DNA of 64,000 nucleotides, taken from positions 33,540 through 97,539 of IMG/VR virus record IMGVR_UViG_3300009788_000095; one strand, written 5' to 3'. The translations under genes and the position numbers were made by a program. Under the pieces are notes generated by a model, which searched no databases, was not told the DNA's origin, and saw only the letters and a list, made by a program, of their open reading frames with translations. Origin of the DNA: a virus. Positions 5,975 to 40,368 of the stretch are shown piece after piece; the first letter of the stretch is position 1, and each line of letters starts with the position of its first letter.

Positions 5975-6449
5975 AACTGAATTTGTTGCTAAGTACAAAA
6001 TAGATTTTCAAGGAGTAAGGGACTTAGAGGGCATCTTAGATGATAATGCTAAGGATACTTTCAGCGAATATTTAATTAAACACAAATTAAAACCTGACAT
6101 TGAAAAAGGGATTGAAGCTGGTGATTTTATCCAAACTACAGATATGGAGGAGTATACCGCGACAGGTGTAGTTGCATCTATTAAAGGGAAGATTGTAGTT
6201 TGGTGTACTAATAGAAAATTTAAGTCTGATGATTTAAATAACTTTAAGTCTGTAAAAATTGTAGCTAAGAAAGATACTCAAGAGTGGGAGACTTTATTTA
6301 TAAGTAACTTTGGTAATTTAAATTATTGCTCTGATACTGAAATTAATGCTCTACGGGGCTCCCTTAGAAGTTTAAATGTTAAAGAAGAGCTATTATCTTT
6401 TATCCCTGAAGTAGGATCAGAGTTAAAAAGAATAACAGATAATCTTTAA
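5967..6449 (+). CDS. Unknown protein (160 aa)
   Basis: ATG at 5967 with AAGGAGG eleven bases upstream, overlapping the preceding gene by 8 bases. Alternating short helices and strands; a segment near the middle reads ATGVVASIKGKIVVWCTNRKF, likely a beta-hairpin. No family recognised. Confidence 0.65.
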   Translation: MTKTEFVAKYKIDFQGVRDLEGILDDNAKDTFSEYLIKHKLKPDIEKGIEAGDFIQTTDMEEYTATGVVASIKGKIVVWCTNRKFKSDDLNNFKSVKIVAKKDTQEWETLFISNFGNLNYCSDTEINALRGSLRSLNVKEELLSFIPEVGSELKRITDNL

Positions 6450-6505
6450 CGGCCAACCACGATATAAATATTTATAAAGACTTAGTAGGTCAGGTCGCTC
6501 CTGGT

Positions 6506-6568
6506 ATGTTAAAGTTAGTAGAACAATATGAAAAAAGACTAAAACAAAAATTAGAAAAACAACAATGA
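6506..6568 (+). CDS. Possible 20-aa microprotein
   Basis: A short frame (MLKLVEQYEKRLKQKLEKQQ) ends in TGA overlapping the next ATG (ATGA). The same frame is open upstream to 6443 without a better start. The sequence is a single amphipathic basic helix. No ribosome binding site is obvious, so it may be only the end of a decayed gene. Confidence 0.3.
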   Translation: MLKLVEQYEKRLKQKLEKQQ

Positions 6569-6945
6569 AGCATTACTACTTTGGCTGTAATAAACAGGCC
6601 GGACATTTTTGGTTTACTTCTGTTAATAAAGGAGAATATTTAATCCCACACTGTAGCTTTAGTATACCAAAAGAACTAGGTAGTATTAGAACATCTATTG
6701 ACAGCTCATTTTGCCCTGCAGACACCGAGGTAGAAGGAATCTCTAACCTTTGGCTTTTGATCTCAGGTAAAAAAAGATGGACAATATTATCTTTTTGGGA
6801 TCACAGTGTTGACAGTAGGCCCGGAAGTAATAGTAACTTTGTAATAGAAGGAGAGCATAATTTCAATAAAATGATAAATTTAATAACTAAATATTTTCCT
6901 TTTATTATAACACGGTTTCATTTTGACATAAAGATGCAGGAATAG
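6565..6945 (+). CDS. Small phage protein of unknown role (126 aa)
   Basis: ATG overlaps the stop of the upstream microframe. N-terminus MKHYYFGCNKQAGHFWF and a central 'LWLLISGKKRWTILSFWDHSVDSRPGS' give it an aromatic, beta-rich character. Similar short 'YYFGC..QAGHFLW' proteins occur in other phages in my recollection, with no function assigned. Confidence 0.65.
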   Translation: MKHYYFGCNKQAGHFWFTSVNKGEYLIPHCSFSIPKELGSIRTSIDSSFCPADTEVEGISNLWLLISGKKRWTILSFWDHSVDSRPGSNSNFVIEGEHNFNKMINLITKYFPFIITRFHFDIKMQE

Positions 6946-6946
6946 T

Positions 6947-7180
6947 ATGATTGAAGTTTATGTAGAATGGTATGACAGTCAGTCTTCTAATGTATGGACT
7001 GAAAAAAAGGACATTCACTATAAACATATACCGGCAGTAACAAAAGGATATAGAGTAAAAGAGACAGACAAGTATATTGTTGTTAGTCATTCCTATGACA
7101 AAGAAACCAACAGCTGGTGTGGATATTTACTTATACCCAAATGCAGCATAATTAAAATAGAGAAAAAGGTAAGCAGATAA
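6947..7180 (+). CDS. Unknown protein (77 aa)
   Basis: ATG at 6947, two bases after the previous stop. Beta-rich sequence with paired short strands (TDKYIVVSHSYDKETNSWCGYLLI). Ends with basic KIEKKVSR. No family recognised; part of the tightly spaced rightward small-gene cluster. Confidence 0.6.
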   Translation: MIEVYVEWYDSQSSNVWTEKKDIHYKHIPAVTKGYRVKETDKYIVVSHSYDKETNSWCGYLLIPKCSIIKIEKKVSR

Positions 7181-8762: not shown

Positions 8763-9605
8763 ATGAAATATTTCTATAGTTCTGCCTCCCAAGGATTCTT
8801 TGGTGAAGGATACGCTTGGCACAAGCCAATCCTACTGACAGAGTCAATACGAAGGTTTATCAAGAGAGAACGGACTCTGACACAGGACGGATTCTCATTC
8901 TGTACAATACCCAAGTTCCCAGACTTTCCATTCGTATGTAAAACAATCACACTGAATCCCAAAAAAGGAACACCCTGGAGATTTACTCCTCCACCTATTA
9001 CTATGATAACTCGTAGTTGTTGGAACAAGATCAGATTGCATAACAAAGGGTTTGATTGGTTTATTAAGGAGTATACGTGGAGATTTGCTTCTGGAGAGAA
9101 ATGTGGAGATCTGTATAAACTTATTCCTTCATTGTATGGAACAACAGATGAACTTCAAAGAATGATAGATGGCTTGGAAGAGTATCTTGATTATATGATT
9201 AAAATGGTAGAAATAAATGTATCTTGTCCCAACGTAAAAGAAATAGCTGAAATCAAACTTCCGGAGTCGCCATATCCATTATCATTAAAGCTACGATATG
9301 ATGATGATCCACGTAGGTATGATCTTTCTAATGTTAAAAGAATAACTTTGAACTCTATACCTGCTAGTCGCTACATTAAAGGTATGCCTGGCGGGATCTC
9401 GGGTAAACTGGCACAGAGTAGAAACTGGGACTTCATACGAAAGTATCAGATACAGATTGCTCCGGAGATAGCCGGATGTTCAATTACCAAGATGGAGGAT
9501 ATTGAAACACTAAGCAAACCCCCATATAACTGTAAATCCATAGGATTAGGTAGTGTCTTAATGATAAACCCATGGCTTGTACTAAAGTTGAAGGAGGAAA
9601 GATAG
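8763..9605 (+). CDS. Dihydroorotate dehydrogenase-like TIM-barrel protein (280 aa)
   Basis: Class 1/2 dihydroorotate dehydrogenases are FMN enzymes of pyrimidine synthesis. Landmarks appear in family order: 'KTITLNPKKGTPW' (60-72), matching KT-[VI]-T-x2-P-x2-GNP; a Trp-Asn and 'NKGFDWF' region; the hallmark 'EINVSCPN' (150-157); 'PLSLKLRYD' (172-180); 'ITLNSIP' (194-200); 'GGISG' (210-214); 'GLGSVLMINP' (261-270). The length suits a slightly short family member. ATG at 8763 follows GAGAGAAAG. Catalytic base and FMN contacts cannot be verified by eye, so it could have changed substrate. A 16-codon frame (8716-8766) bridges it to the gene before. Confidence 0.75.
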   Translation: MKYFYSSASQGFFGEGYAWHKPILLTESIRRFIKRERTLTQDGFSFCTIPKFPDFPFVCKTITLNPKKGTPWRFTPPPITMITRSCWNKIRLHNKGFDWFIKEYTWRFASGEKCGDLYKLIPSLYGTTDELQRMIDGLEEYLDYMIKMVEINVSCPNVKEIAEIKLPESPYPLSLKLRYDDDPRRYDLSNVKRITLNSIPASRYIKGMPGGISGKLAQSRNWDFIRKYQIQIAPEIAGCSITKMEDIETLSKPPYNCKSIGLGSVLMINPWLVLKLKEER

Positions 9606-10038: not shown

Positions 10039-10476
10039 ATGACTAATATATATTATAGATTCATTAATTGGAAGAATAGTTTATTTAAAGAAAAAATAAC
10101 ATGCTTACGAAGAATGCATGATCCCGATCATCGGGAGCATAAAAAAGAATTAGATTATTGGTATACACGAGGTATAAATAAAACTTGTAGTTTTTGTGGC
10201 TCCATGCACCCAGATGAGTTTTTTGACTTATGTAAAAAAGTAATTGAAAATAAAGGGCTTAATGGGTATGAAGTTTCAATGTCTGATAAGAAATATAAAA
10301 TTTATGTCCGCCAACCGGGTGTTTCTAATGCAGGAGATGGAGTTATCAAATTTTACGTTCAGCACATAAGACCAAAAGATAAAACAAAAGAATTTGAGAA
10401 TATAGTAAATGAAGCAATACGTATATCTTCAGATGTGTTTAATAAAAAAATGGAAGAAAGGAGGAAAACTAAATGA
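10039..10476 (+). CDS. Phage protein with CxxC motif (145 aa)
   Basis: ATG at 10039, AGGAGG upstream. After a basic N-terminal region come 'CSFCGSMHPDEFF' (about 50-62) and a beta-rich part ('YKIYVRQPG...KFYVQHI'). Short phage proteins with a CSFCGS...HPDEF start and a DKxYKxYV segment recur in other genomes as I recall, but without known role. A small hairpin (TCCCGAT/ATCGGGA, near 10122-10136) lies in its coding sequence. It overlaps the next gene by ATGA. Confidence 0.65.
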   Translation: MTNIYYRFINWKNSLFKEKITCLRRMHDPDHREHKKELDYWYTRGINKTCSFCGSMHPDEFFDLCKKVIENKGLNGYEVSMSDKKYKIYVRQPGVSNAGDGVIKFYVQHIRPKDKTKEFENIVNEAIRISSDVFNKKMEERRKTK

Positions 10477-11522
10477 TATGTGTACTAATCATACCGACAG
10501 GGGTAGGTCTTGCAATAGGTGGAAATGCCGGTGACGCTAATCCAGTTGCTAAACTAATTGGGGCTTGTTGTGATAAGTTGATTCTTCACCCTAATGTAGT
10601 AAATGCCAGCGATATAAACGAAATGCCAGAAAATGCAGTGTATGTAGAGGGATCCATGCTTGATCGGTTTCTTAGGCAAGAAATTGAATTGAAAGAAGTC
10701 CTACGGAATAAGGTATTAGTCGTTGCTAACCTGCCTCTCAGGAGCGATACTATAAATGCTGTAAGTGCAGCCAGAGCTACTATAGGTCTGGAAGCTAGTG
10801 TCTTGGAGTTAAATACACCATTAGAAATGATTGCCGAGATGCATGAAGACGGACATGCTGGCGGCATAGTAAGAGGCTGGAAAGAATTAATTGAACAAGT
10901 TGCACCGTTTGATTTTGATGCCTTGGCGGTACACACTCCGATAACTGTACCAAGAGAGACTGGATTAAATTATTATAAAAAAGGAGGCGTAAACCCGTGG
11001 GGCGGAGTTGAGGCAATAGCAAGCAAACTTATAGCTAATGAACTAAACAAACCGGTTGCTCATGCTCCTGTAGAAAGTTTTAATATAGATGACCAACAAG
11101 AAGTATATGATCTAGTAGTGGATCCTAGAATAGCTTCAGAGTCACTATCCAGTTGTTATTTACATTGTGTACTTAAAGGGCTGCATAAGGCACCACGTAT
11201 CAGTGATCATTGTCCGGGATATGGTAGACGTATAGCTGCTCAAGAAGTCGATTTTATGGTATCACCTTTTGGTCTGTGGGGTCCTCCTCACGAAGCTTGT
11301 GCAGCATTAGATATACCTATTATATTTGTCAATGAAAATAAACCGGCTAAAGGACTCGCAAAAGAGATCCCGGAAGGCAAATATCCTAGAATATTTCAAG
11401 TTGAAAATTATATAGAGGCAGCCGGTCTAATTATGGCTCATGAAGCTGGAATTGATCCTTTATCTGTCAGAAGACCATTAGCAAATACAATAATAATAAA
11501 GGAGGTACAGAATGAAAAGTAA
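10473..11522 (+). CDS. DUF3326-family protein (349 aa)
   Basis: Full length for the DUF3326 family, which I know mainly from cyanobacteria, plants and some bacteria, with no established reaction. Recognisable features: the N-terminal 'LIIPTGVGLAIGGNAGDANP' followed by 'PVAKLIGACCDKLILHPNVVNA', a Gly/Asp-rich opening typical of the family. Later come 'GVNPWGGVEAIASKLI', 'AHAPVES', 'SSCYLHCVLKGLHKAPRI' and 'SPFGLWGPPHEACA', all well preserved. GGAGG binding site eight bases upstream. The gene is intact and its context (DHODH-like gene 900 bp before) suggests a metabolic role in infected cells, but this is inference. Next gene starts inside its last codons. Confidence 0.8.
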   Translation: MICVLIIPTGVGLAIGGNAGDANPVAKLIGACCDKLILHPNVVNASDINEMPENAVYVEGSMLDRFLRQEIELKEVLRNKVLVVANLPLRSDTINAVSAARATIGLEASVLELNTPLEMIAEMHEDGHAGGIVRGWKELIEQVAPFDFDALAVHTPITVPRETGLNYYKKGGVNPWGGVEAIASKLIANELNKPVAHAPVESFNIDDQQEVYDLVVDPRIASESLSSCYLHCVLKGLHKAPRISDHCPGYGRRIAAQEVDFMVSPFGLWGPPHEACAALDIPIIFVNENKPAKGLAKEIPEGKYPRIFQVENYIEAAGLIMAHEAGIDPLSVRRPLANTIIIKEVQNEK

Positions 11523-16446: not shown

Positions 16447-17373
16447 CTATTGTTTAAGAATATTATACTTCCCTTTATACTTTACTAAGAAAGGAGAAAA
16501 CATACCATATATCTCATGTATATCTTTTTTCATATCTTTAAGAGACTCTTCGTTTGGATTGATATCTAAAAGAGGCTCAAGATACGATGTATACAGTTTT
16601 CTCGCTTCTCTATTAGCTTCCCTAGCAGCTAAACGCCCATCAAGCTCTTTTACTTTTTTCTCAATATCATTTGACTTTTTTATAACCTGATCTGACTCAC
16701 CCCATTTATTTACCTGATCCACTTCTTTCTGACTGAGTACTACTACAGAGTTTTTACCAGCAGCTTCTCTAACTTTATCACGTAAAGATTTATCAGCTAC
16801 ATTTCCATTCTGCTCTTTATAGAACCAATCTTGAATCTCTTTTTGTCTTTCTACAGATAATGTTTCAAATATATTAGCCATTGTAACAAAGTCTTTATTT
16901 TTATTTATTGCTCGCGCTATGTAATCCCGGGGAGATAATTCTGCTTCTGCCTTATTATCGTCCTTTTTACCTTTTCCTGTTTTCCAGGCACGCCTTTCTT
17001 GAAGATAAGGTATAATTTTCATTTTTAAGAAGGAGTCTACTTCTCGTCTTTCAGTATTATCAGCTAACATCCACTCAAGTTCATCATCTTCAGGAATATC
17101 AATCACACTACACAGAGTTTCTTCAAATCCTAATTCTTTTAACACCTTATACCTACGATGCCCTGATATAATATGTTTTGTTTTCCAGTTAATAACAACT
17201 GGATTTTGAACCCCACGTACACGAATGTCTTCCTTAAGTTCATCTAATTCACTTTCTTCGTGAGCTGTACGCGGCTTAGTTGGAAAAAACTCTTCATTTT
17301 TTGGATGTATTACTATCTGGTCTAAGCTTATCTTAACAAACTTCATTTCCGAACCTAGTCCTAATTCCCGCAT
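16447..17373 (-). CDS. ParB-like nuclease/CTPase-domain protein (308 aa)
   Basis: Residues 10-100 match the ParB N-terminal (ParB/Srx) fold: 'VKISLDQIVIHPKN' , 'ELKEDIRVRGVQNPVVI', 'HIISGHRRYKVLKELG' (GHRR at 71-74) and then an 'ADNTERREV' segment. A helical, probably DNA-binding region follows (RDYIARAINKNKDFVTMANIFETL, with the typical HTH spacing), and then a charged C-terminal region. In phages such proteins bind DNA or modify it. ATG at 17373 has a perfect AAAGGAGGT site. A 9-bp inverted repeat at 17409-17440 lies just upstream and may be its operator. Confidence 0.75.
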   Translation of the reverse strand: MRELGLGSEMKFVKISLDQIVIHPKNEEFFPTKPRTAHEESELDELKEDIRVRGVQNPVVINWKTKHIISGHRRYKVLKELGFEETLCSVIDIPEDDELEWMLADNTERREVDSFLKMKIIPYLQERRAWKTGKGKKDDNKAEAELSPRDYIARAINKNKDFVTMANIFETLSVERQKEIQDWFYKEQNGNVADKSLRDKVREAAGKNSVVVLSQKEVDQVNKWGESDQVIKKSNDIEKKVKELDGRLAAREANREARKLYTSYLEPLLDINPNEESLKDMKKDIHEIYGMFSPFLVKYKGKYNILKQ

Positions 17374-22698: not shown

Positions 22699-24555
22699 AT
22701 GTCAAGTAGTAGACGTAATGCAGTAAATGAAAATATTTCAACCTATGATAGTGCTGGAGGAAAAGATTATTCGGACTTGGGTGTATGGGAAAGTTTTACT
22801 GATATTGACCTCGTATCTGCTGCACAGTCTGAAGTGCTTGAGTGTTACAAAGGTGTACATGATGATGATGTGAATATGGTAGGATCAATAAATAATTCTT
22901 CATATCATAGAATTATCCGACCGGCTCCAGGAGAAGGACATAACGGGATTCCAAAACTTGATGGAACTGTAGTAGCGTTTTCTAATACATCGAATCTTAG
23001 TCCGTTTTGGTTGGCTGAAAATTATGCACAAATACAAGATTTAGTTTTAAAGTCAACCGTCAACGAAGCAGCCGATCGTTTTGTCATTGTTATGGATGAC
23101 ATCTATGATTATCAAAAGGCAATAGGATGTTTGGTTGTAGACAGCACAAATACTGGTTCAGGATCACTACTTGTTGGAATTTTATTTTATAATAATCATT
23201 TCATAATAAATTGCTTAATTCATAATTGTGAGCGAGTAGGGTTTGGAGGTCTTAACGCTGGAGGAACAGGCCTTTGTTATAATTGTGGTTCTGATAGCAA
23301 TGATGTTGGATTCCAATCAAATGTTCAAGTCACAATTGTAACAAATTGTGTGTCTTCAAATAATACGACATTAGATTGGGATACCGCCGCTGGTGGTTCT
23401 TTTACAACAACGACGTGTACTGCAGAAAATGATACACCGGTATTTAATGATGCTGCAAATGATGATCTTAGACTTGATGAAACTGATTATATATGTAGAA
23501 AGAAGGGTACTGATTTAAGTTCCGATGGAGTATTTGCTTTCGATGATGATATAATGTTTAATACTAGAACTTTTTGGGATATTGGATTTCATGCAAATTT
23601 TGATTTATCATCTCGAATAAAAGCAACAAATGAAAATGTAAGTACTTATGATTCAGCAGGTGGAAAAGATTATAGTGATCTTTCTGTTTGGGAAGCATTT
23701 ACTGATATTGACCTCGTATCTGCTGCACAGTCTGAAGTGCTTGAATGCTATAAAGGTGCACATGATGATAATATTACTTTTAGTGGAGCCACAACTAATA
23801 TATCTTATTTTCGTATAATAAGAGCAGCAAGTAGCGAAGGACATTCAGGTGTTCCATTAAGTGATGGATCATGTGTTGAATTTCACAATACTGGTAATGT
23901 AGAATTGATTTATCTCAATGAAGAATATGCTATAGCACAAGATTTAGTTGGAAAGTTAACACAAAATACAGGTGGTCAAAATGCATGTTTTAGAATAGCT
24001 GGTCCAAGTGCAAAATCGGTTGGGTGTATTGCATATGATTCCACAAATGCTGGTGCTGGTAATTTAGATGGATTTCAGCTGTATGACCATAATACCATAA
24101 TAGTTAATTGTTTAGCTCATAACGTGAAATCAAGAGGGGCTATGTACACTATGGGTGGTGGTAATACAGGATATATATATAGTTGCACTTTTACGAATAA
24201 TGGTACAACAGGAGTATTTCAATGGACAGGTACAGCAATAGGAAAAAATATTTTAGCCAGTGAGAATGCTATAGATTTTGCAGGTACAATTACGAAAACA
24301 ACATGTAATGCGGAGGGATCAAACCCTGTATATAGAGATGCTGCAAATAATGATTTTAGATTATCCGGGGTAGATACAATTGGAAGAAATAACGGTACGG
24401 ATTTAAGTGGTGTTGCTCCTGAAAGTGAGGCAGTATTTCCATTTAATGACGATATACATGATAGAACTATGGGAGGTTCTAAGCCTGGTAAAAATAGAGT
24501 GGGGTTATGGGGTATAGGATTTTATCAATTTTATAGTAGAGCTTATGTAACATAA
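22699..24555 (+). CDS. Tailspike-like protein with internal duplication (618 aa)
   Basis: Two halves of about 300 residues start with almost the same block: 'STYDSAGGKDYSDL' then 'VWE.FTDIDLVSAAQSEVL' , 'ECYKG.HDD'. Short strands rich in Asn, Gly, Thr and Cys ('NCLIHNCERVGFGG', 'NCLAHNVKSRGAMY') with regular spacing indicate a right-handed parallel beta helix, as in polysaccharide-degrading tailspikes. Each half ends with 'FNDDI..RT..WDIGF'-like close. No catalytic residues can be named. A 47-bp stretch is identical between the halves. Probably host surface binding or depolymerisation. Confidence 0.7.
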   Translation: MSSSRRNAVNENISTYDSAGGKDYSDLGVWESFTDIDLVSAAQSEVLECYKGVHDDDVNMVGSINNSSYHRIIRPAPGEGHNGIPKLDGTVVAFSNTSNLSPFWLAENYAQIQDLVLKSTVNEAADRFVIVMDDIYDYQKAIGCLVVDSTNTGSGSLLVGILFYNNHFIINCLIHNCERVGFGGLNAGGTGLCYNCGSDSNDVGFQSNVQVTIVTNCVSSNNTTLDWDTAAGGSFTTTTCTAENDTPVFNDAANDDLRLDETDYICRKKGTDLSSDGVFAFDDDIMFNTRTFWDIGFHANFDLSSRIKATNENVSTYDSAGGKDYSDLSVWEAFTDIDLVSAAQSEVLECYKGAHDDNITFSGATTNISYFRIIRAASSEGHSGVPLSDGSCVEFHNTGNVELIYLNEEYAIAQDLVGKLTQNTGGQNACFRIAGPSAKSVGCIAYDSTNAGAGNLDGFQLYDHNTIIVNCLAHNVKSRGAMYTMGGGNTGYIYSCTFTNNGTTGVFQWTGTAIGKNILASENAIDFAGTITKTTCNAEGSNPVYRDAANNDFRLSGVDTIGRNNGTDLSGVAPESEAVFPFNDDIHDRTMGGSKPGKNRVGLWGIGFYQFYSRAYVT

Positions 24556-27231: not shown

Positions 27232-27618
27232 ATGGTATTAGTTAGTGTAGGTCTTTTTTTATTAGCGGTATCCCTGGTTTTTTCGATAGTACTTTTTTGT
27301 ATGTCCTTGTCTAAGATAAAGATTGGAGGTACTATAAATGTAAACATACCTCAGAACGGATATCATAAATTTGCAGGTGTTGATCCTGCTCAAGGTAAAG
27401 ATAGGTCTGAAATGACAATGGTCGAACATCCCGGACCAGATGGTAGTACGATTAGTTATCCTACAGCTGTTCCGGATATGAGTATACTTGATAGTGCTAA
27501 AGTTGAAACTAATATGGATTCGGAAACATTAATTATTAAAGGTAATACCAAGGGTAGCGATATTAAAAGTGCTGCAGCAGAACTTAAAAAAACTAAAAGT
27601 AGCAAGGGGTTAAAATGA
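27232..27618 (+). CDS. Membrane-anchored protein (128 aa)
   Basis: ATG at 27232. One N-terminal membrane helix (residues 1-26, VLVSVGLFLLAVSLVFSIV), then a soluble 100-residue tail containing 'KFAGVDPAQGKDRSEMTMVE' and a Lys/Ser-rich end. The ATGA overlap with the next gene suggests that it works with the actin-like protein, perhaps as a membrane anchor. That link is inferred from position only. Confidence 0.55.
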   Translation: MVLVSVGLFLLAVSLVFSIVLFCMSLSKIKIGGTINVNIPQNGYHKFAGVDPAQGKDRSEMTMVEHPGPDGSTISYPTAVPDMSILDSAKVETNMDSETLIIKGNTKGSDIKSAAAELKKTKSSKGLK

Positions 27619-28628
27619 AGGGTTTAGATATTGGGACAGCATTTATTGTTTGTATGGAGCAAGGTACTGAGGGGAACCAGGTAGTTCGTAGTGAGAGAGA
27701 TGCTTTTTTTGAAGTACCTCCAGGTGAGTTTACAAAAAATATGCTTAACCAGTCTGGGGTTAATTATGTTAAGATGGACGACAAACTATATGTTATTGGT
27801 GATAAAGCTATGGAATTTGCAGAGGTGTTTGGTAGTGAAGCGCGTAGGCCACTTGCTCGTGGCTATATCAGCCCACGAGAAAAAGAAGCGCTTCCTATTT
27901 TAAATCAGATTATTAAGGCTGTAGCCGGTAAAATAAATGAAAAAAATGAGAAATTGATATTTTCGGTACCTGCGGATACTATTGATGATTTTCAGAGACA
28001 GAATGCCTTGGTATACCACAGAGAGAGTATAGCTACACTTATAAGACATATCGGGTTTGAGCCTATTGCACTTAATGAAGGTTTAGCGGTTATTTATTCT
28101 GAACTAAAAGATTATCAATTTAGCGGCCTAAGTTTAAGCTATGGAGCCGGAATGGTAAATTTTTGTGCGTCTTGGCTATCAGTGCCTATTCCTGAGCTTA
28201 CTTTTGCAATAGGTAGGGGCGGTGACTGGGTAGATGAAAGTGCTGCCCGAGCTTTAGATGAGAGTATTGCAGTAGTTTGCGGGATGAAAGAATCTCCAAA
28301 TGAATTTAATCTTAATGATAATTATGAATCTGGTATTCCTCAGGCATTAAGTATTTATTATAAAGAACTTATCAGGTATACACTAATGACCTTAGAACGT
28401 GCATTTTATAAAATAAAAAGGCGGTTTCCTAAACCGATACCTATTGTTATAAGTGGAGGAACTACATCTCCTCCTGGATTTTTGAACCTATTTACCGAGA
28501 TGACAAGAAAATGTATCTTTTCTAATTTTAAAGGAGATAGGATAGAGATAGGGGATATAATCCAGGCCGGTAATCCATTGTACTCTGTAGCTCAAGGTTG
28601 TATGATTAAGGGTGTGATAGATGGGTAA
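27615..28628 (+). CDS. Actin-like ATPase of the ParM/MreB fold (337 aa)
   Basis: The actin/Hsp70 ATPase fold is shown by phosphate-1 'GLDIGTAF' (3-10), connector 'NEGLAVIYSE' (154-163), phosphate-2 'LSYGAGMVNF' (174-183), a 'GRGGDWVDESAA' segment (200-211) typical of filament-forming relatives, and the adenosine motif 'IVISGGTTS' (277-285). Length suits ParM/Alp-type actins rather than Hsp70. The usual partner is a DNA-binding adaptor. The small gene 28621-28908 overlaps its stop and is a candidate. Phage-encoded actins have been linked to plasmid-like segregation or replisome positioning; here it lies upstream of terminase genes. Confidence 0.8.
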   Translation: MKGLDIGTAFIVCMEQGTEGNQVVRSERDAFFEVPPGEFTKNMLNQSGVNYVKMDDKLYVIGDKAMEFAEVFGSEARRPLARGYISPREKEALPILNQIIKAVAGKINEKNEKLIFSVPADTIDDFQRQNALVYHRESIATLIRHIGFEPIALNEGLAVIYSELKDYQFSGLSLSYGAGMVNFCASWLSVPIPELTFAIGRGGDWVDESAARALDESIAVVCGMKESPNEFNLNDNYESGIPQALSIYYKELIRYTLMTLERAFYKIKRRFPKPIPIVISGGTTSPPGFLNLFTEMTRKCIFSNFKGDRIEIGDIIQAGNPLYSVAQGCMIKGVIDG

Positions 28629-28908
28629 TAACGAAAACGAAATTGGTAGTTTAGGTGAATCTCAGATAACTAAGCAGGAAGAAAAAGTTATTATACCACA
28701 AAGGTTAGTAGGTAAGGATGTTGTTAACTGCCCTATAGCAGCTGCTGCAGAGTCAGTTGTACTTGTAGATTTTTGTAAAAATATATGTTCTCATTTTGTT
28801 AAATTTATTGAAGATGAGAAATATGGTAATAGGGTTGAGTGTAAATACCCTAGATTTATAAAAGTTATTAATGTTTACGGAAAAGAAAAGTCAACTACCT
28901 TTACCTAA
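28621..28908 (+). CDS. Unknown protein paired with the actin-like gene (95 aa)
   Basis: ATG at 28621 overlaps the previous gene by eight bases. Distinct features: 'NCPIAAAAESVVLVDFCKNIC' around residues 40-60 with three Cys, and a final basic beta-like segment. Its last five codons (STTFT) read into the hairpin that begins the IscB-linked region, so the true C-terminus may have been replaced by insertion of that element. Its close linkage to the actin-like gene suggests an adaptor role. Confidence 0.55.
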   Translation: MGNNENEIGSLGESQITKQEEKVIIPQRLVGKDVVNCPIAAAAESVVLVDFCKNICSHFVKFIEDEKYGNRVECKYPRFIKVINVYGKEKSTTFT

Positions 28909-28972
28909 AGGGTAGGGGCTTGAGTAGTGATGCTCAACGCAAGGGTTGATTAGGGAGCTAAAAGGAAATTTT
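28889..28972 (+). ncRNA. Candidate omega-RNA / HEARO-type structured region
   Basis: Three nested hairpins lie between the previous gene and the IscB start: CTACCTTTA/TAAAGGGTAG (about 28894-28914), TTGAG/CTCAA (about 28920-28937) and CAAC/GTTG (about 28935-28948), ending at TTAGGGAGCTAAAAGG. IscB nucleases use an RNA encoded just upstream of the gene, with the guide at its 5' end, which would fall in the end of the preceding gene. The exact ends and guide cannot be set by eye, and the RNA may extend into the N-terminal coding region of iscB. Confidence 0.45.
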
Positions 28973-30319
28973 ATGCAGAAGTTATTAGTAAAGTTAAAGA
29001 ACACACCTACGGATGCTTCACAAGTCTGTAGCTCTGTAAATTCTGTATTAAACAAAGAGGGCACTCTTAGTGTGCAGAATAAAGTACTGGCTAATAACAA
29101 TCCCGAAGTGAATCGAGTCTCTACAAACAAGACGCTCGTTAAAAGTAAAGTGTTTGTGCTTAACAAACAAGGTTTACCATTAATGCCCTGTAGTTATGCT
29201 AAGTCTAAAAGAATGGTTAAAAAGGGAGGAGCGAAAGTAGTTAAAAGATATCCCTTTACAATCCAATTAACATTTGATTGTGAAAACAAAACCCAAGATA
29301 TTACTTTAGGTATTGATACGGGTTTTGGTAACATTGGGTTTAGTGCTGTTTCAGAAAAGGAAGAATTAATTTCAGGAACTTTAAAACTCGATGGAAGAAC
29401 TAAAGAAAGATTAGATGAAAGAAGAATGTATCGAAGATGTAGAAGAAACAAATTGTGGTACAGGAAAGCAAGATTTAGTAATCGAAAGAAAAAAGAAGGA
29501 TGGTTACCTCCTTCAACCCAAAGACGGTATGATACACATTTGAATTTAATTAACGGGTTGAAAAAGATACTGCCCATCACTTTAATTACTGTTGAAGTAG
29601 CAAAGTTTGATATCCAGAAGATAGAGAATCCAGATATCCAAGGAAAAGAATACCAGCAAGGTAATTTGTACGAATATCAAAATACAAGAAGTTACTTAAT
29701 GGCTAGAGAAAAGGGTAAGTGCCAGTTATGTAGTAAAGATTTTAAAGGTCAACCAAGTCACCTACACCACTGTAAACAACGAAATGAAGCGGGTAGTAAT
29801 AGACCTGAAAACTTAGCCTTACTTCATAAAGTATGTCACACGAAGCTACACAGAAAAGGATTAAAACTATTTAAACCAAAAGAATATAAGGCCAATATAT
29901 TTATGTCTATTATAAACAAAAGGTTCTGGAAAGATGTTTCTAATTTAAAAGTTACTTACGGTAATACAACATTTGTTGATAGAAATAATTTAGAGTTAGA
30001 AAAATCTCATGTTAACGACGCTTTTGTTATTGCTAACGGTTCTAGTCAGAGAAGGTGTAAAGCGTTTAGTATACTTCAAAAGCGTAGAGCGAATCGAGCG
30101 TTGCAGTTAAATAGAAAAGGATTTAAACTTTCTATTCGTAAACAGAGATATAACTTACAGCCGCATGACTTAGTTAAAGTTAATAACCTTATTTGCACTG
30201 TTATTGGAACTCATTGCAAAGGTACTAGAGTTATGATTAATAAATTGGATAGAAAAGTTAGTGAGTCAATTAAAAATATAGAATGGAGTTTTCATTTTGG
30301 AAGTTTTACATATAATTAA
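28973..30319 (+). CDS. iscB: IscB RNA-guided nuclease (448 aa)
   Basis: IscB proteins, the ancestors of Cas9, cut DNA guided by an omega RNA. Features in order: an unusual 58-residue N-terminal extension; PLMP domain ('VFVLNKQGLPLMPCSYAKSK', 60-79); RuvC-I 'LGIDTGFG' with Asp 115; Arg-rich bridge helix (146-172); RuvC-II 'ITVEVAKFD' with Glu 208; HNH domain with zinc pair CQLC (250-253), 'HLHHCKQRN' (His 265, 266), Asn 280 and 'KVCHTKLH'; RuvC-III 'SHVNDAFVIAN' with Asp 349; and a basic C-terminal domain. All catalytic residues are kept, so activity is expected. ATG 28973 has AAAAGGA upstream; an earlier TTG at 28946 is less likely. No transposase accompanies it. Confidence 0.88.
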   Translation: MQKLLVKLKNTPTDASQVCSSVNSVLNKEGTLSVQNKVLANNNPEVNRVSTNKTLVKSKVFVLNKQGLPLMPCSYAKSKRMVKKGGAKVVKRYPFTIQLTFDCENKTQDITLGIDTGFGNIGFSAVSEKEELISGTLKLDGRTKERLDERRMYRRCRRNKLWYRKARFSNRKKKEGWLPPSTQRRYDTHLNLINGLKKILPITLITVEVAKFDIQKIENPDIQGKEYQQGNLYEYQNTRSYLMAREKGKCQLCSKDFKGQPSHLHHCKQRNEAGSNRPENLALLHKVCHTKLHRKGLKLFKPKEYKANIFMSIINKRFWKDVSNLKVTYGNTTFVDRNNLELEKSHVNDAFVIANGSSQRRCKAFSILQKRRANRALQLNRKGFKLSIRKQRYNLQPHDLVKVNNLICTVIGTHCKGTRVMINKLDRKVSESIKNIEWSFHFGSFTYN

Positions 30320-30720: not shown

Positions 30721-31746
30721 ATGGGTGAGTTAAGGAATAAGTATAGAGATATGGAGACGGGGCAGTTTGATAGTGTATTAAAGCCGGAGGACGAGGCTTA
30801 CATTATTAATAATTATTTAAACATGACGGACGCAGAGATGGCTACTCAGTTAAAAGTAAACATGCAAGTAATCCAGAATTTTAGAAGTAAAAAGGGTTTA
30901 ATGAAAATGTCTTATTCTTATGAGAGCGCTTTTGGTGGGGTAATGAAAGATGTCGAGAATAACCCACAGGATAAAATGAAAGAGAAAATAGAAAAAAGTG
31001 AAGGCGGGGGTATTAAGCAGGGTAAAGGTAAGGAAAAACAAAAAAAGAAAAATGTCTCTGAGTTTTCTTACGAAGATGAAAAAAAAGCATTAAGAAAGTA
31101 CTTATCTTTAGATATCAAAAAGTTAATTCCGTCTCAGTATTTAAAAGATATAGGCACACAAGATGAATTTGTAGATAAGTTTATAATTCTTAGAAAGAGT
31201 TTTAACGATGGTGAGTGGAGGGATTTTATTGCTCATTGGATGAGATATATGAAGGAGCATCAATATGATTTTAATGTAGCTGAAGACTTTGATGATTTAT
31301 CAGGATTGATAAGGGAATTAATTATTCAATCAAATATATTTGATAGAAATAAAAATGCGCGTACTAGTGATGCGTTTTTTTCAATATATATGAAGCAGTT
31401 TAATGAGTCTGTAAGTAGACAGAAACGATACCAGGATAATTTAAAACTTTCCAGGAAATCTAGAAAAAGTGAAAAGGATTATGATAAAGAATCTTTTGTT
31501 GAAATAGTAGCTATGTTTGATAATGAGGAGACACGTAAAGTGATGGCTCAGGCAGATAAAGAGGATAATGTTGAGTTACTTAATTATATGGACAAAATAA
31601 GAAAAAAAATGAGAGAGGAGGTTCCGGAAGGTACTGAAATTGACGGACAGGAATCTTCTTTGCTAATGGGTATAAGCGAAGAAAAAGTTCAAGATATAGT
31701 AGATAAAGGTATTGATGTCTTAGAGAAGGAGAAGATTGAAAAATGA
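30721..31746 (+). CDS. Putative small terminase subunit or TerL-linked protein (341 aa)
   Basis: ATG at 30721. N-terminal 60 residues fit a helix-turn-helix ('DEAYIINNYLNMTDAEMATQ' then 'NMQVIQNFRSKKGLMKMSY'), as expected for DNA recognition by a small terminase. A Lys/Gly-rich linker and a long helical domain with heptads follow. Its stop overlaps terL (ATGA). It is longer than most TerS proteins, so it may have an added domain. The assignment is from position and HTH. Confidence 0.55.
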   Translation: MGELRNKYRDMETGQFDSVLKPEDEAYIINNYLNMTDAEMATQLKVNMQVIQNFRSKKGLMKMSYSYESAFGGVMKDVENNPQDKMKEKIEKSEGGGIKQGKGKEKQKKKNVSEFSYEDEKKALRKYLSLDIKKLIPSQYLKDIGTQDEFVDKFIILRKSFNDGEWRDFIAHWMRYMKEHQYDFNVAEDFDDLSGLIRELIIQSNIFDRNKNARTSDAFFSIYMKQFNESVSRQKRYQDNLKLSRKSRKSEKDYDKESFVEIVAMFDNEETRKVMAQADKEDNVELLNYMDKIRKKMREEVPEGTEIDGQESSLLMGISEEKVQDIVDKGIDVLEKEKIEK

Positions 31747-33581
31747 TGGGTGAGAGGAAGGGTTTATCTGAGTCTGAAATAAGGATGATTAAATATTTTC
31801 GTATACGTCCTGACAGGGCTGCGGAAATGTTATTAGGTATTGATTTTTTACCTTTTCAAAGATTACTTATTTTTATAGGTTGGTACTTTCCTTTTGTTTT
31901 AAATATACTGACTAGAGGTGCTGGTAAGACTTTTATGTTAGCTACTTTAGCATTACTCAGGGCTATGCTGTATTCTAATCAGAAGGTTGGGTTACTGGCG
32001 GCTTCCTTTAGACAATCAAAGCTACTTTTCGCTGAAATTTATAGGATATATATGAAGTCTGCGCTTTTACAAGGTATGGCGGAGAAGCCTCCTGTACGTG
32101 GTACGGATCTATGCTATTTTAATCTTAAAAATGGATCTGAAATTCAGGCATTACCTTTGGGTGATGGTGAGAAAATTAGAGGAGCGCGTTTTTACTATAT
32201 AGTACTGGATGAGTTAGCTCAAATTCCGGAAATTATCCTTAATATTGTTATAATAGGTATGACAGCAACAAAGCAGGACCCTATTAAAAGCGCAAGAATG
32301 GAGGCTTTGAAAAAGAGATTAAAAAAGGAGGGGAAAGTACCTTCTAGGAGTATACAGCTGGTTTCAGAATTAACTAAGAATTATCTAATAGGTGCTTCTA
32401 CAGCTTATTACCAATTTAATCATCTTTTTAAAATGCTAAAAAATTATATAAGGGTTATAAAGGATAAAGTCATAGCTGAAAATGGTATGGATTTATGGAA
32501 GCTGTATGCAGTATACAAGTTATCGTATAAGATGATACCTGAGGGATTCATGTCTATAGAATCGATAATGATGGCTAAGGAAAAAATGTCGAGCATGCAG
32601 TTTAACATGGAATATAATTGTTTATTTCCTGCGGAGAGTGGGGGTTTTTTTCCGGCTCAGATTGTAATGAATGCTTATACACATAATGGACAGATACATT
32701 TTGAGCTTGCAGGGGATGGTAACGCTGCATATATACTTTTTTGTGACCCGGCAAGAACTAGTGACAACTGTACTTTTTCTATTAATAAAATATTATCTAC
32801 TACAGAAGCTACCCGGTATGCGTGTGTTTGTGTAGAGGTACTTCAGGGTAGAAAGTTCCAAGAGGCTATGGAAAGGATTAGGGATATATGCCGTAGGTTT
32901 AATATTGTTAGAATCGCTATGGATCAGGGCGGTGGTGGATTAGCTATAAAAGATCTATTAAATGATCTTGATAAATGTCCGGAAGGTGAAGAATTAATTT
33001 GGGATTTTGAAGATCCGGCCTCTTACTTAGATGAGGAGATGCAGTTTAAAAAACCTGGATTACATATCTTGCATTTAGTTAATTTTAACCCTGCTTATTT
33101 GACGGAAGCTAATCATGGCTTATTATCCTCTTTAGAAAGAAAAGAATATGTATTTCCTACACCGTTAGGTACAGAGGATTTGATGAATAAAGGTGAGAAG
33201 GAAGCAGAGCAATTAGAAAATGTAGAGACAGAGATGCTTGTCGCTAAAAATGAGATGATAAACATTGTATTAACTAGAACACCAAAGGGATCTCCTCACT
33301 GGGATACACCAGCGAAAGGACAAAGAAAAGATAGATATACTGCTATTATGGGAGGCTGTAAAGAATGTAAAGATTTTATTAAGCCTGAAAATAGTGAAGA
33401 AGTAACTATAGATTTACCAACGGGAGGTTGGGCAGGTAAAGCAAGTTTGAGTACAAAGAAGGAGTTAGGTGTCGGAGCTGCTGATCTTACCCAAGGAGGA
33501 ATTAAGTTTTCAGAAGCAGCAGAGAGAAGAAAAAGATTAGTTTATGCTAAAAAATTATCAGAGATAGCTGAGTTAAATTAA
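31743..33581 (+). CDS. terL: Terminase large subunit (612 aa)
   Basis: The packaging motor: ATPase domain with Walker A 'TRGAGKT' (57-63) and Walker B 'YIVLDELAQIP' with Asp 156 and Glu 157, and a RuvC-type nuclease domain with 'ILFCDPARTS' (Asp 335) and 'RIAMDQGGGG' (Asp 394). 'LTRGAGKTFMLATLALLRAM' and the 'LAASFRQSKLLFAEI' coupling segment are typical. Length suits terminases of phages with headful or cos packaging. Located just before the portal gene, the usual order. Confidence 0.92.
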   Translation: MMGERKGLSESEIRMIKYFRIRPDRAAEMLLGIDFLPFQRLLIFIGWYFPFVLNILTRGAGKTFMLATLALLRAMLYSNQKVGLLAASFRQSKLLFAEIYRIYMKSALLQGMAEKPPVRGTDLCYFNLKNGSEIQALPLGDGEKIRGARFYYIVLDELAQIPEIILNIVIIGMTATKQDPIKSARMEALKKRLKKEGKVPSRSIQLVSELTKNYLIGASTAYYQFNHLFKMLKNYIRVIKDKVIAENGMDLWKLYAVYKLSYKMIPEGFMSIESIMMAKEKMSSMQFNMEYNCLFPAESGGFFPAQIVMNAYTHNGQIHFELAGDGNAAYILFCDPARTSDNCTFSINKILSTTEATRYACVCVEVLQGRKFQEAMERIRDICRRFNIVRIAMDQGGGGLAIKDLLNDLDKCPEGEELIWDFEDPASYLDEEMQFKKPGLHILHLVNFNPAYLTEANHGLLSSLERKEYVFPTPLGTEDLMNKGEKEAEQLENVETEMLVAKNEMINIVLTRTPKGSPHWDTPAKGQRKDRYTAIMGGCKECKDFIKPENSEEVTIDLPTGGWAGKASLSTKKELGVGAADLTQGGIKFSEAAERRKRLVYAKKLSEIAELN

Positions 33582-33591
33582 AGGAGCGGGT

Positions 33592-35730
33592 ATGGTAAAA
33601 AACGGTAAGGATACTGGAGTTGCCCAAAAACATAAAACGGGGACTAAAATTGATTATGATAAGGGGGAAGTGTCTGTAGAACTTCCTTATTTAGAAAGAC
33701 ATGATCAAGCTTCGTACCATAGAGCTGATGACTACGAGACAGAGATAGGTGGAGGTTCTTCAACTTTTCGTAAAAGGGCGTATTCGAATATCAAGTCTAA
33801 AATAAGTCAGGCTCAGGATTATTATATAAAAGATTCTTTAGCAAGAAGGTTTATTGAGTTGATGGCTCAATTTTCAGCTACTTCAGTACAGTTAAAAGGC
33901 GCACAAAAGTACAAAGTTTTTTTTAATCAATGGATGAAGGTTGTAGGCATGCCTACTATTTTAAAAAAGATATTTAAAGAATTTTATAGAAGTTCAAATG
34001 TGCATACAATTAAATGTACCCTTCCTTTTAAAGGCAAATTTAAAAAAGGAGAGAAATTAGATATAGATATCCTGAAGGGTTTTAAGACTGACGGACGGTT
34101 AGGTAATTTTGATAATGCTAAGTATAAGATCGATTTAGCTAGATATATAAGAGGTGGTGAATCAACAGATATAGCGGCTAGAAAATTAAATTGGTCTAAT
34201 AAGATGATCCCCTGGCGGTATACAGTTTTAAACCCTTTGCAAATTGAAAAATATGGAGATTCTACTTTTAGGTTAGAAGAAACATACTGGACCCCGAGTA
34301 GCTCACTAAGGCATTTAATATTAGAGATTGAGGCTGATAAAGGAAAAGCCAGAAGAAAAAAATTAGAGCCTATTATTAAATCTATTCCTGCTATGTTATA
34401 CCAACAGTTAAAAGATGGTAAATCAAAAATAGAATTATTCCCTCATTTTTATTCTCCAATATATAGACTAAAAGATGATTATGAGAGCGATGGTGAGCCT
34501 TTGATGACTCCTATCTTTGATCATCTCTTTAGAAAGAACCAAATGAGAGAAGCTGATATTCGAGTTATTAATTCTGTGATTAATAAAATATTATTAATAA
34601 GGGTAGGTAGTGACAAATTTCCAGCTAAGAAAAAACAGTTGGAGGCTATCTCTGCTATATTTCAAGAGCCTTCACATGTTCTTGAATTAATATGGAATCA
34701 TTGTATTGATGTTAAGTGGGTTGATGTTCAGACAGAGTTCTTAAATGACGATAAATATAATTCTGTAGATAAAGACATCAAAGAGGGATTCGGGGTAACA
34801 GAAGTTTTATTAGGCACAGCAAAAGATAATAAAGGAAATCCTTTTGTATCGTTAAGAGGGTTAGTTGAAAATATGGCTGACGGTCAGGAATCTGTTTCTG
34901 AATGGTTACAAGAGGAGTTTGAAGATATAGGCGATACTTTACAGCTGGACACTGTTCCAGAGCCGCATTTAACGACTATTAATCTTGAGGATAAGGTTAA
35001 TCTTTTTAAGATATACCAAGGTATGGTAGATAGAGGTATTTTATCTAATGAAACAGTTTGTGAGCTTATGGGAGAGGACTGGAGAAGAAATCTTGCACAA
35101 ATTAAAAAAGAGTCTAAACAGAGAGAAGAAGGCATATTGCCTTTGATGGGGTCACCTTATCAGAAAGGAACTGAGTCTCCTTCAACAGTAGCGCCTGGTG
35201 ATAAAGTTCCAGGAGATCCTAATGTACCTACAGGAGTAAAGCCTAAGTCAGAAATCACACCACAAGAGAGAAGAGGGTCTCAAGGAAAACCGGTAGGTAA
35301 ACAAGGTCCTTTACAGACTCCGCGAAAAAGTCCTCGTATGAAAGCAGCAGCGGAAGCAGCAGTATTAGACGGGAGTGATGTTTTAACTGCTGATGAATTG
35401 ATAGGGTATGCTAATCAGGCAGTTAAGAAATTGTACGACAGCTATAATACAGGCGGAAAAGATTTTAAAGCTATATACAACGATGTAGCGCTTGATTTAT
35501 ATAAAATACCTTCAAAGGATATAGCTTTTTTTATTAGCAATGGCGGATATAAAATTAATGGAGAAATTGATTTAAATTCTGATTTGTATAAAAATGTAGT
35601 GTCGGATATTAGGGGTATGGCCAGTACTTATATCTCTAAGTGGAAAAGAAATAACGTAGGTAAAAATATGTCGCCAGATGTTTCTCTAAGTATATTAGCT
35701 GATTCTTGGGCTGCATGTGTACCTGTTTAA
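33592..35730 (+). CDS. Portal protein (712 aa)
   Basis: ATG at 33592 with AAAGGAG upstream, directly after terL, where the dodecameric portal is expected. The central region has the portal alternation of helices and strands ('DSLARRFIELMAQFSATSVQLKG', 'INKILLIRVGSDKFPAKKKQ', 'EGFGVTEVLLG'), including the long helices of the stem and wing. The C-terminal 170 residues carry a Pro/Gly/Lys linker and an extra helical domain, so it is larger than usual portals. Assignment from context and style; no single invariant motif proves it. Confidence 0.75.
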   Translation: MVKNGKDTGVAQKHKTGTKIDYDKGEVSVELPYLERHDQASYHRADDYETEIGGGSSTFRKRAYSNIKSKISQAQDYYIKDSLARRFIELMAQFSATSVQLKGAQKYKVFFNQWMKVVGMPTILKKIFKEFYRSSNVHTIKCTLPFKGKFKKGEKLDIDILKGFKTDGRLGNFDNAKYKIDLARYIRGGESTDIAARKLNWSNKMIPWRYTVLNPLQIEKYGDSTFRLEETYWTPSSSLRHLILEIEADKGKARRKKLEPIIKSIPAMLYQQLKDGKSKIELFPHFYSPIYRLKDDYESDGEPLMTPIFDHLFRKNQMREADIRVINSVINKILLIRVGSDKFPAKKKQLEAISAIFQEPSHVLELIWNHCIDVKWVDVQTEFLNDDKYNSVDKDIKEGFGVTEVLLGTAKDNKGNPFVSLRGLVENMADGQESVSEWLQEEFEDIGDTLQLDTVPEPHLTTINLEDKVNLFKIYQGMVDRGILSNETVCELMGEDWRRNLAQIKKESKQREEGILPLMGSPYQKGTESPSTVAPGDKVPGDPNVPTGVKPKSEITPQERRGSQGKPVGKQGPLQTPRKSPRMKAAAEAAVLDGSDVLTADELIGYANQAVKKLYDSYNTGGKDFKAIYNDVALDLYKIPSKDIAFFISNGGYKINGEIDLNSDLYKNVVSDIRGMASTYISKWKRNNVGKNMSPDVSLSILADSWAACVPV

Positions 35731-39420: not shown

Positions 39421-40368
39421 ATGAGAAACGATTTATTGTTGAAAATTGAATCTGGTGACGCGTTATCTGATTCTGAGAAACGTGAACTTTTCATGGAGAT
39501 GGGCAAAAACAGTCGTGAGGCTGAAGAGCTCAGAAAAGATTTCGCAGCGTCCAGGGGTGAGTTACTATTACCGGTATTAAGGCAACAATCACTAATTAGG
39601 CAAATATTTAGAGAATCTTTTACTAACGGACAACAAATACCTTATCCTATCAGATCTAAGAGGATTAGAGCTGCTTGGTTTATGGCTAGTATATCAGGTG
39701 TTCCACAAAGAACAGCTGAACAAGATGAGATGGTGTTTCCAACTTTTTATATAAAAGGTGGAGCTCGTTGGTATCTTGATTATGCTAGAGCAGGAAATTA
39801 CGAGTTAATTGAAGAACTCGAAAATGACCAAATGGACGAAGTAGCATACAAAGAAAATCTAGCCGGATGGACACTTATAAAAGCTGCTGAAGCTTCTGGT
39901 GACATGCTTGTCATTGATAAGATTTCTGCTGAGACAGGTTTCACAGTTAAAGTAATGGTAGAAATCATTACTAACTTGGAAGAGCAGGACGATAAGAGAC
40001 AGATATCAGATATATATCTTTCTCCGAGACGCTATAACGATATTCTCAATTGGGCTAAGTTAGACGTTGAACAGTTAGACGATGGCACAAGACGAGAGAT
40101 ATTTAGTAGAGGTCCTGAAGCTGTAGCCAATATTCTCAGAAGCTGGGGTGTAGCTTTTCATAAAGTTTTTGATCCTGAATTTGTAGATGATACTAAATGC
40201 TATTGTTTTCAAGGCAGTAGATTTGGTGTTATGCCTGTTGACAAGCGATGGGAAACAGTGCATGACGATCAAGCTAAGATGACCTGGGAAGATGGATGGA
40301 TTGGGCGTGAACAGGTTGGTTTCGGTATTACCGATTTACCATCTGGTTGCGTTTATAAATTTGCATAA
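39421..40368 (+). CDS. Major capsid protein, HK97 fold (315 aa)
   Basis: ATG at 39421 with a good AGGAGG site. After a helical N-terminus (1-50), the sequence has 'FRESFTNGQQIPYPIRSKRIRAAWFMA' (E-loop-like), 'WTLIKAAEASGDMLV' (spine helix), 'RQISDIYLSPRRYNDIL' (P-domain strand and helix) and the end 'GREQVGFGITDLPSGCVYKF', all usual for HK97-type capsid proteins. Position after scaffold and decoration genes supports it. A terminator-like hairpin follows. Confidence 0.82.
   Translation: MRNDLLLKIESGDALSDSEKRELFMEMGKNSREAEELRKDFAASRGELLLPVLRQQSLIRQIFRESFTNGQQIPYPIRSKRIRAAWFMASISGVPQRTAEQDEMVFPTFYIKGGARWYLDYARAGNYELIEELENDQMDEVAYKENLAGWTLIKAAEASGDMLVIDKISAETGFTVKVMVEIITNLEEQDDKRQISDIYLSPRRYNDILNWAKLDVEQLDDGTRREIFSRGPEAVANILRSWGVAFHKVFDPEFVDDTKCYCFQGSRFGVMPVDKRWETVHDDQAKMTWEDGWIGREQVGFGITDLPSGCVYKFA

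Follow-up and report, generated by a model that had tools for sequence, protein, structure and literature searches.

The window analysed here spans the final 64 kb of an IMG/VR virus record of 97.5 kb and carries a cassette of three ORFs that overlap in series, by 4 nt and then by 8 nt, with the stop codon of the first gene overlapping the start codon of the second (ATGA). An earlier note had placed three overlapping genes at 27232-28908, in the order membrane protein, actin, small partner, and the ORF coordinates (Table 1) bear out both the overlap and the position of the membrane protein before the actin. The same locus is present on a near-identical 180-kb IMG/VR contig (L001; 99.99% over 13 kb). 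On its 3′ side the cassette is followed by an IscB element, a small membrane protein, a 341-aa protein, the large terminase subunit, the portal and the major head protein. The window belongs to a bacterial or archaeal virus; the search for host clues yielded neither a tRNA nor an annotated relative.

Table 1. Features of the actin cassette and its surroundings in the 64-kb window.
Feature	Position	Strand	Remarks
ParB N-terminal domain protein	16447-17373	-	distant from the actin cassette
ORF 1, membrane protein	27232..27618	+	128 aa, ATG; directly 5′ of the actin gene
Predicted transmembrane helix codons of ORF 1	27235..27306	+	about residues 2-25; Kyte-Doolittle
Tail motif of ORF 1, DIKSAAAELKKTKSSK	27559..27606	+	residues 110-125; candidate volactin-binding peptide
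ORF 2, volactin-family actin	27615..28628	+	337 aa, ATG; PF25216
ORF 3, four cysteines (CPI..C..C..CKYPR)	28621..28908	+	95 aa, ATG
HEARO (omega) RNA of the inserted IscB element	28890..29118	+	Rfam RF02033, 116.7 bits, E 2e-23
IscB RNA-guided nuclease ORF	28946..30319	+	guided_IscB, 292 bits (NCBIfam); RRXRR, HNH (Pfam)
Terminase large subunit, start of the head/packaging module	31743..33581	+	Terminase_6N; phrog_2, E 1.7e-25
Portal	33592-35730		phrog_2739, E 3.5e-17
Major head protein	39421-40368		phrog_2522, E 8.8e-7

ORF 2 matched the Pfam family Volactin (PF25216) over its full length (residues 2-331; E 4.6e-70, 237.1 bits against a cut-off of 35). No other Pfam family appeared at E values up to 1, and PHROGs contained no corresponding family. 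The protein carries the phosphate-1 (GLDIGT), phosphate-2 (SYGAGMVN) and adenosine (SGGT) motifs, and residues D5, G7, T8, E155, S175, G177, G179, D204, D207, G281 and G282 were invariant among 44 relatives. An AlphaFold2 model computed with 44 sequences (pLDDT 95.1, pTM 0.92) shows the actin fold. Its nearest solved structures (Foldseek, VIA-align 2) were MamK (Z 29.0 at 19% identity), BeeR (28.2) and MreB (about 27), with actin and crenactin next at Z values of about 25. An actin fold with its nucleotide motifs, as expected in the earlier note, was thus recovered; neither Hsp70 nor a sugar kinase, to which a closer relationship had been considered, was among the best PDB matches listed for the model. 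By its predicted structure, ORF 2 is an actin proper in fold, and an Hsp70 or sugar kinase is not favoured. Its profile and structure matches both lie far above what chance would give.

The ParM-type pairing proposed in the same note did not hold up: the actin is a volactin, and its assignment to StbA/ParM was rejected, Volactin being the sole Pfam family at E values up to 1. A search of the record with PF06406 gave no match, but this profile matched nowhere at all. MamK, although the nearest solved fold, was rejected as well, as ORF 2 reached 27.9 bits against an NCBIfam MamK cut-off of 400; no magnetosome genes were noticed in the context.

The volactin of Haloferax volcanii (VolA, HVO_2015), described in 2024, forms long dynamic filaments whose tips touch the membrane, and its binding factors are stated to be unknown (PMC10869688). 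The window protein has in common with it the full-length Pfam family and the actin fold. As far as the literature could be accessed, volactin has so far been studied in salt-loving archaea only, and our search of it returned no paper on phage volactins. A scan of IMG/VR that used three aligned sequences detected 398 viral relatives, some of them on contigs of 370 to 620 kb. These viral volactins occur in huge phages and in a marine T4-like cluster; among the genomes of the annotated collection, two from huge phages contain an unannotated volactin, and a further cluster emerged with haloarchaeal queries. Among cellular organisms, volactin was detected above the cut-off in 58 of 149 Planctomycetota genomes and in 2 of 145 genomes from the phylum of a Falkowbacteria MAG, and it was also found on haloarchaeal plasmids. 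In the tree, which also includes cellular and divergent phage volactins, those of the window and of its nearest relative, L006 (48% identity), branch together as a separate deep lineage. Contig L002 was discarded as a relative; its 41% segment is a chance peptide match within an unrelated 869-aa protein.

The product of ORF 1 has one hydrophobic segment, located at the N terminus (highest Kyte-Doolittle mean over 19 residues, 2.81, at residue 2), which agrees with the single-pass membrane protein noted before. Since K29 and K31 follow this helix, the C terminus should be cytoplasmic according to the positive-inside rule. Pfam returned nothing above cut-off, a bactofilin assignment was rejected (14.7 bits against a cut-off of 27.9), and Pfam, PHROGs and NCBIfam gave no DNA-binding family for this protein. 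Its C-terminal 20 residues match the tails of genes located directly 5′ of volactin in huge phages and Planctomycetota, with the motif ending 3 residues before the C terminus. L006 encodes a 125-aa membrane protein with the related tail DTADSIAALKNLRKGK. Scored with a phage adaptor matrix derived without sequences of the window clade, ORF 1 reached 10.0 and the L006 protein 13.6, compared with 6.5 for the next best of 77 other window ORFs. When the soluble part was shuffled in 5000 trials, the score was reached in 0.1% of them for the window (P 0.001) and in 0 for L006. Judged by its hydrophobic moment, the helical tail of ORF 1 is not clearly amphipathic. We here define an adaptor as the gene directly 5′ of volactin that ends in the tail motif, and ORF 1 is such a gene.

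In the huge phages, the product of the gene directly 5′ of volactin has about 210 residues and, at its end, a conserved motif with the consensus GVDEAAKALKALRKKK, which usually lies within 10 residues of the C terminus and is preceded, about 25 residues before, by FIPS/T. The AlphaFold2 model of one such adaptor consists of a folded N-terminal domain (no confident PDB match, best E 0.27), a disordered stretch, a helix at residues 98-120, further disorder and an isolated helix at residues 187-201, the latter corresponding to the tail motif. An upstream gene with the motif was present in 73 of 81 phage loci and directly adjacent in 64, counts that are partly circular as the genes were chosen by the motif. 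Some volactin loci (L004, L023, L063 and L091) had no recognisable tail gene.

In Planctomycetota, the genes 5′ of volactin span 160 to 800 codons and end in the tail [ST]N[LI]..V.V......GI..SL.RLK.LR. For a blind test, a tail HMM was trained on 33 of these genes, with no phage sequence in the training, and run against 3285 distinct phage-locus ORF tails in which upstream genes were labelled by adjacency only. Fourteen of the top 20 were adjacent-upstream genes, of which only 55 were available among the 3285 (hypergeometric 8e-22, a value inflated by kinship among the phages). The L006 gene ranked 2nd, a haloarchaeal (Natrinema) upstream gene 3rd and the window gene 14th. Taken alone, the window gene is a weak match (E 1.3). 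Of 4115 other ORFs, no more than 2 reached its score. With the marine-trained tail HMM it ranked 293 and went unrecognised, and with the full, longer huge-phage tail HMM it ranked 114. Because the single matches are weak, it takes rank, position and the L006 relative combined to link the window tail to the others; and as the marine and full huge-phage profiles rank this tail so low, it is the short motif matrix and the Planctomycetota profile that carry the link.

On haloarchaeal plasmids (Haloarcula, Natrinema), the gene before volactin encodes a DUF7139 membrane protein with about four hydrophobic helices and an acidic tail that contains a similar motif, apparently twice (in Natrinema GVDQQVAGLKGLKGG and TVDDQTAKLKELREQQ; second copies were recognised by eye only). 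The phage matrix scored the Natrinema tail at 10.5 (shuffle P 0.002) and the Haloarcula tail at 3.9 (P 0.065, alone not significant). The arrangement of a membrane protein gene before the actin is the same as in the window, whereas the window adaptor has a single membrane helix and one tail copy, and its volactin gene sits in a virion module, where a role in cell shape is not expected. A DUF7139 gene is also present somewhere in the genome of Haloferax volcanii. The haloarchaeal tails, together with the tip anchoring in Haloferax, suggest the DUF7139 protein as the candidate anchor.

Further volactin loci were encountered during these comparisons. Volactins are widespread in Planctomycetota (e.g., L085-L117, L122-L160), each located after an unnamed gene with a conserved C-terminal tail, and some genomes contain a second, divergent volactin (L145-L147). 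More divergent members (L149-L154) lie a few bases 3′ of a gene of about 600 aa ending in ..LDRVL.AM.., which is a different type of partner. In the Candidatus Falkowbacteria MAG (L091), a volactin at 6001-6975, 43% identical to that of the window, adjoins two gas vesicle GvpL/GvpF genes and a Cdc48-type ATPase gene.

ORF 3 had been put forward as the small cysteine-containing partner of the actin. Its four cysteines were confirmed and are shared with a 66-aa gene that occupies the corresponding position in L006; the partner role found no support. In the IMG/VR search, ORF 3 occurred in only two contigs, the window's phage and L006, it is not conserved with volactin, and Pfam, PHROGs and NCBIfam gave no family match, DNA-binding families included. 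ORF 3 is best seen as a neighbour rather than a proven part of the actin system, and on sequence grounds ORF 1, not ORF 3, is the likely adaptor. The 3′ end of ORF 3 is occupied by a complete IscB element with its HEARO RNA (28890-30319), located within the phage late gene cluster. As the HEARO RNA begins inside ORF 3, the last six codons and the stop of this gene were supplied by the insertion. Homology of the IscB ORF starts near residue 69. L006 is without the element at this place, and its next gene directly overlaps the 66-aa gene. The IscB element and the HEARO RNA are not part of the actin system.

These data also bear on the idea of a DNA mover similar to ParMRC or AlpAC, in which the actin would push phage DNA and a small protein would serve as adaptor on repeats near the operon. 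In prophage CGP3, the phage actin AlpC and its adaptor AlpA move phage DNA to the membrane, with alpA preceding alpC (PMC4446434). The window resembles this system in its phage actin, the adaptor gene directly 5′ and the link to the membrane region, and a protein with a ParB N-terminal domain is encoded elsewhere in the window. AlpA, however, binds DNA repeats, and the actin families differ; in the window, no iteron-like centromere was found at 26.8-29.2 kb (a single 15-nt repeat in two copies was seen), and the adaptor, a membrane protein, matched no DNA-binding family. The type II plasmid partition system ParM-ParR-parC likewise combines an actin with a cotranscribed partner, for which binding to the actin through a short C-terminal segment has been proposed. 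It differs in its iterons, in its DNA-binding partner, which in the window is an upstream-encoded membrane protein, and in the actin, which in the window is not ParM by profile. With the 95-aa protein also lacking a DNA-binding family and conservation with volactin, we consider a DNA mover improbable. The window system is a new form of the known prokaryotic actin-adaptor pairs.

A membrane anchor before the actin, called unusual in the earlier note, turned out to recur in haloarchaea and in marine phages. Within the marine cluster (L189-L254), a single-pass membrane protein of about 100 residues is encoded 5′ of volactin in 46 of 54 assessable loci. These proteins mostly end in GKVKTQKDKLKKLRG, a tail weakly resembling those of Planctomycetota (10 of the top 20, with one expected). 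The observation made in that note was confirmed and its interpretation partly supported. Of the 66 marine loci, 43 have a T4-type major head protein beside volactin (within the fetched flank), and a head maturation protease is found nearby in some. The membrane protein together with volactin is thus a recurring item of phage head modules, in the window as well as in the marine cluster. T4-type proheads are built on the membrane, which fits a membrane tether in the marine cluster, and capsid positioning is plausible from the gene context. In the huge phages, volactin is located near putative tail genes, named so from by-eye resemblance (sheath-like sequence) and not from profile hits.

That each of the three phage groups has these genes within a head or tail module would also suit a morphogenesis ATPase acting without long filaments, i.e., a local assembly factor or virion component that the adaptor tail recruits to the head or tail, and the folded soluble N-terminal domain of the huge-phage adaptors points in the same direction. 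Against it speak the membrane-protein nature of the window adaptor, the filament-forming proteins among the nearest solved folds and the dynamic filaments of the characterised Haloferax volactin. We regard such an ATPase as unlikely.

Our preferred reading, to which we assign a probability of roughly 0.6, is a phage volactin system in which the tail of ORF 1 tethers filaments to the membrane in the service of phage assembly. The 337-aa volactin would bind ATP and most likely form dynamic filaments as the archaeal volactin does. The 128-aa protein would reside in the cytoplasmic membrane through its N-terminal helix and expose a flexible cytoplasmic linker with a short helical tail end. This tail may bind volactin, probably at the filament end, much like the C-terminal 17 residues of ParR, which were proposed to bind ParM between subdomains IA and IIA (PMC3794156); such binding is suggested by the genetic linkage and the ParR precedent. 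Filaments tethered in this way by their tips, as the example of Haloferax volactin suggests, could push or hold proheads or packaging complexes, the cargo indicated by the head-gene context. Volactin membership, the N-terminal hydrophobic helix and the site beside head genes are direct readings of the sequence, while the conservation of the partner tail and its linkage to volactin are statistical in nature.

The frequency of volactins in Planctomycetota, whose upstream genes have C-terminal tails of this type, would also allow a takeover of the host, with the phage volactin disturbing or replacing a host volactin cytoskeleton and the phage tail mimicking that of the host partner. The volactins of the window and L006 are, however, not nested in one host group, and every phage encodes its own tail gene beside volactin, which makes a takeover very improbable. 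Tethering by the phage's own adaptor could also be part of a wider scheme. With somewhat less than even odds, we suggest that the volactins of archaea, Planctomycetota and phages constitute one modular system, in which filament ends are caught by the short C-terminal tail of the upstream partner and the members differ in the anchor alone: haloarchaea use four membrane helices, the window and the marine phages one, and the huge phages a soluble domain. If so, the DUF7139 protein would be the missing membrane anchor of archaeal volactin, and phages would have at the membrane an actin-based device for holding or moving proheads or tails, corresponding to the tubulin spindle in jumbo phages. That spindle, PhuZ, is also a phage-encoded filament thought to position phage components, but as a tubulin it has no homology to the window actin. 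As the tail is shared by three kinds of organism, it suggests a common means of fastening actin filaments to membranes or to parts of the virus, and a single peptide-binding experiment would test archaeal, bacterial and phage anchors together. Moreover, should the virion genes of many marine phages be accompanied by an actin and a membrane tether, phages that actively position their capsid assembly may be much more numerous than the few jumbo phages with a tubulin spindle would indicate.

Several other regions of the window attracted attention. Metabolic-looking phage genes at 8763-9605 and 10473-11522 encode a dihydroorotate-dehydrogenase-like ORF and a DUF3326 protein (E 3.6e-70), and a 618-aa protein encoded at 22699-24555 contains an internal duplication (153-nt pieces, about 80% identical). 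A single open frame of more than 5500 codons extends from 47480 to the window end at 64000. Eight clustered base differences between the window and the 180-kb contig at 51700-51710 introduce a stop into this frame in the contig version and none in the window version, which reflects either an assembly error or real variation. According to the 180-kb relative (L173, L174), the giant frame comprises about 6430 codons in all, up to contig position 121245. It carries a PhageMin_Tail tape-measure domain and, if it encodes a tape measure, would imply an exceptionally long tail.
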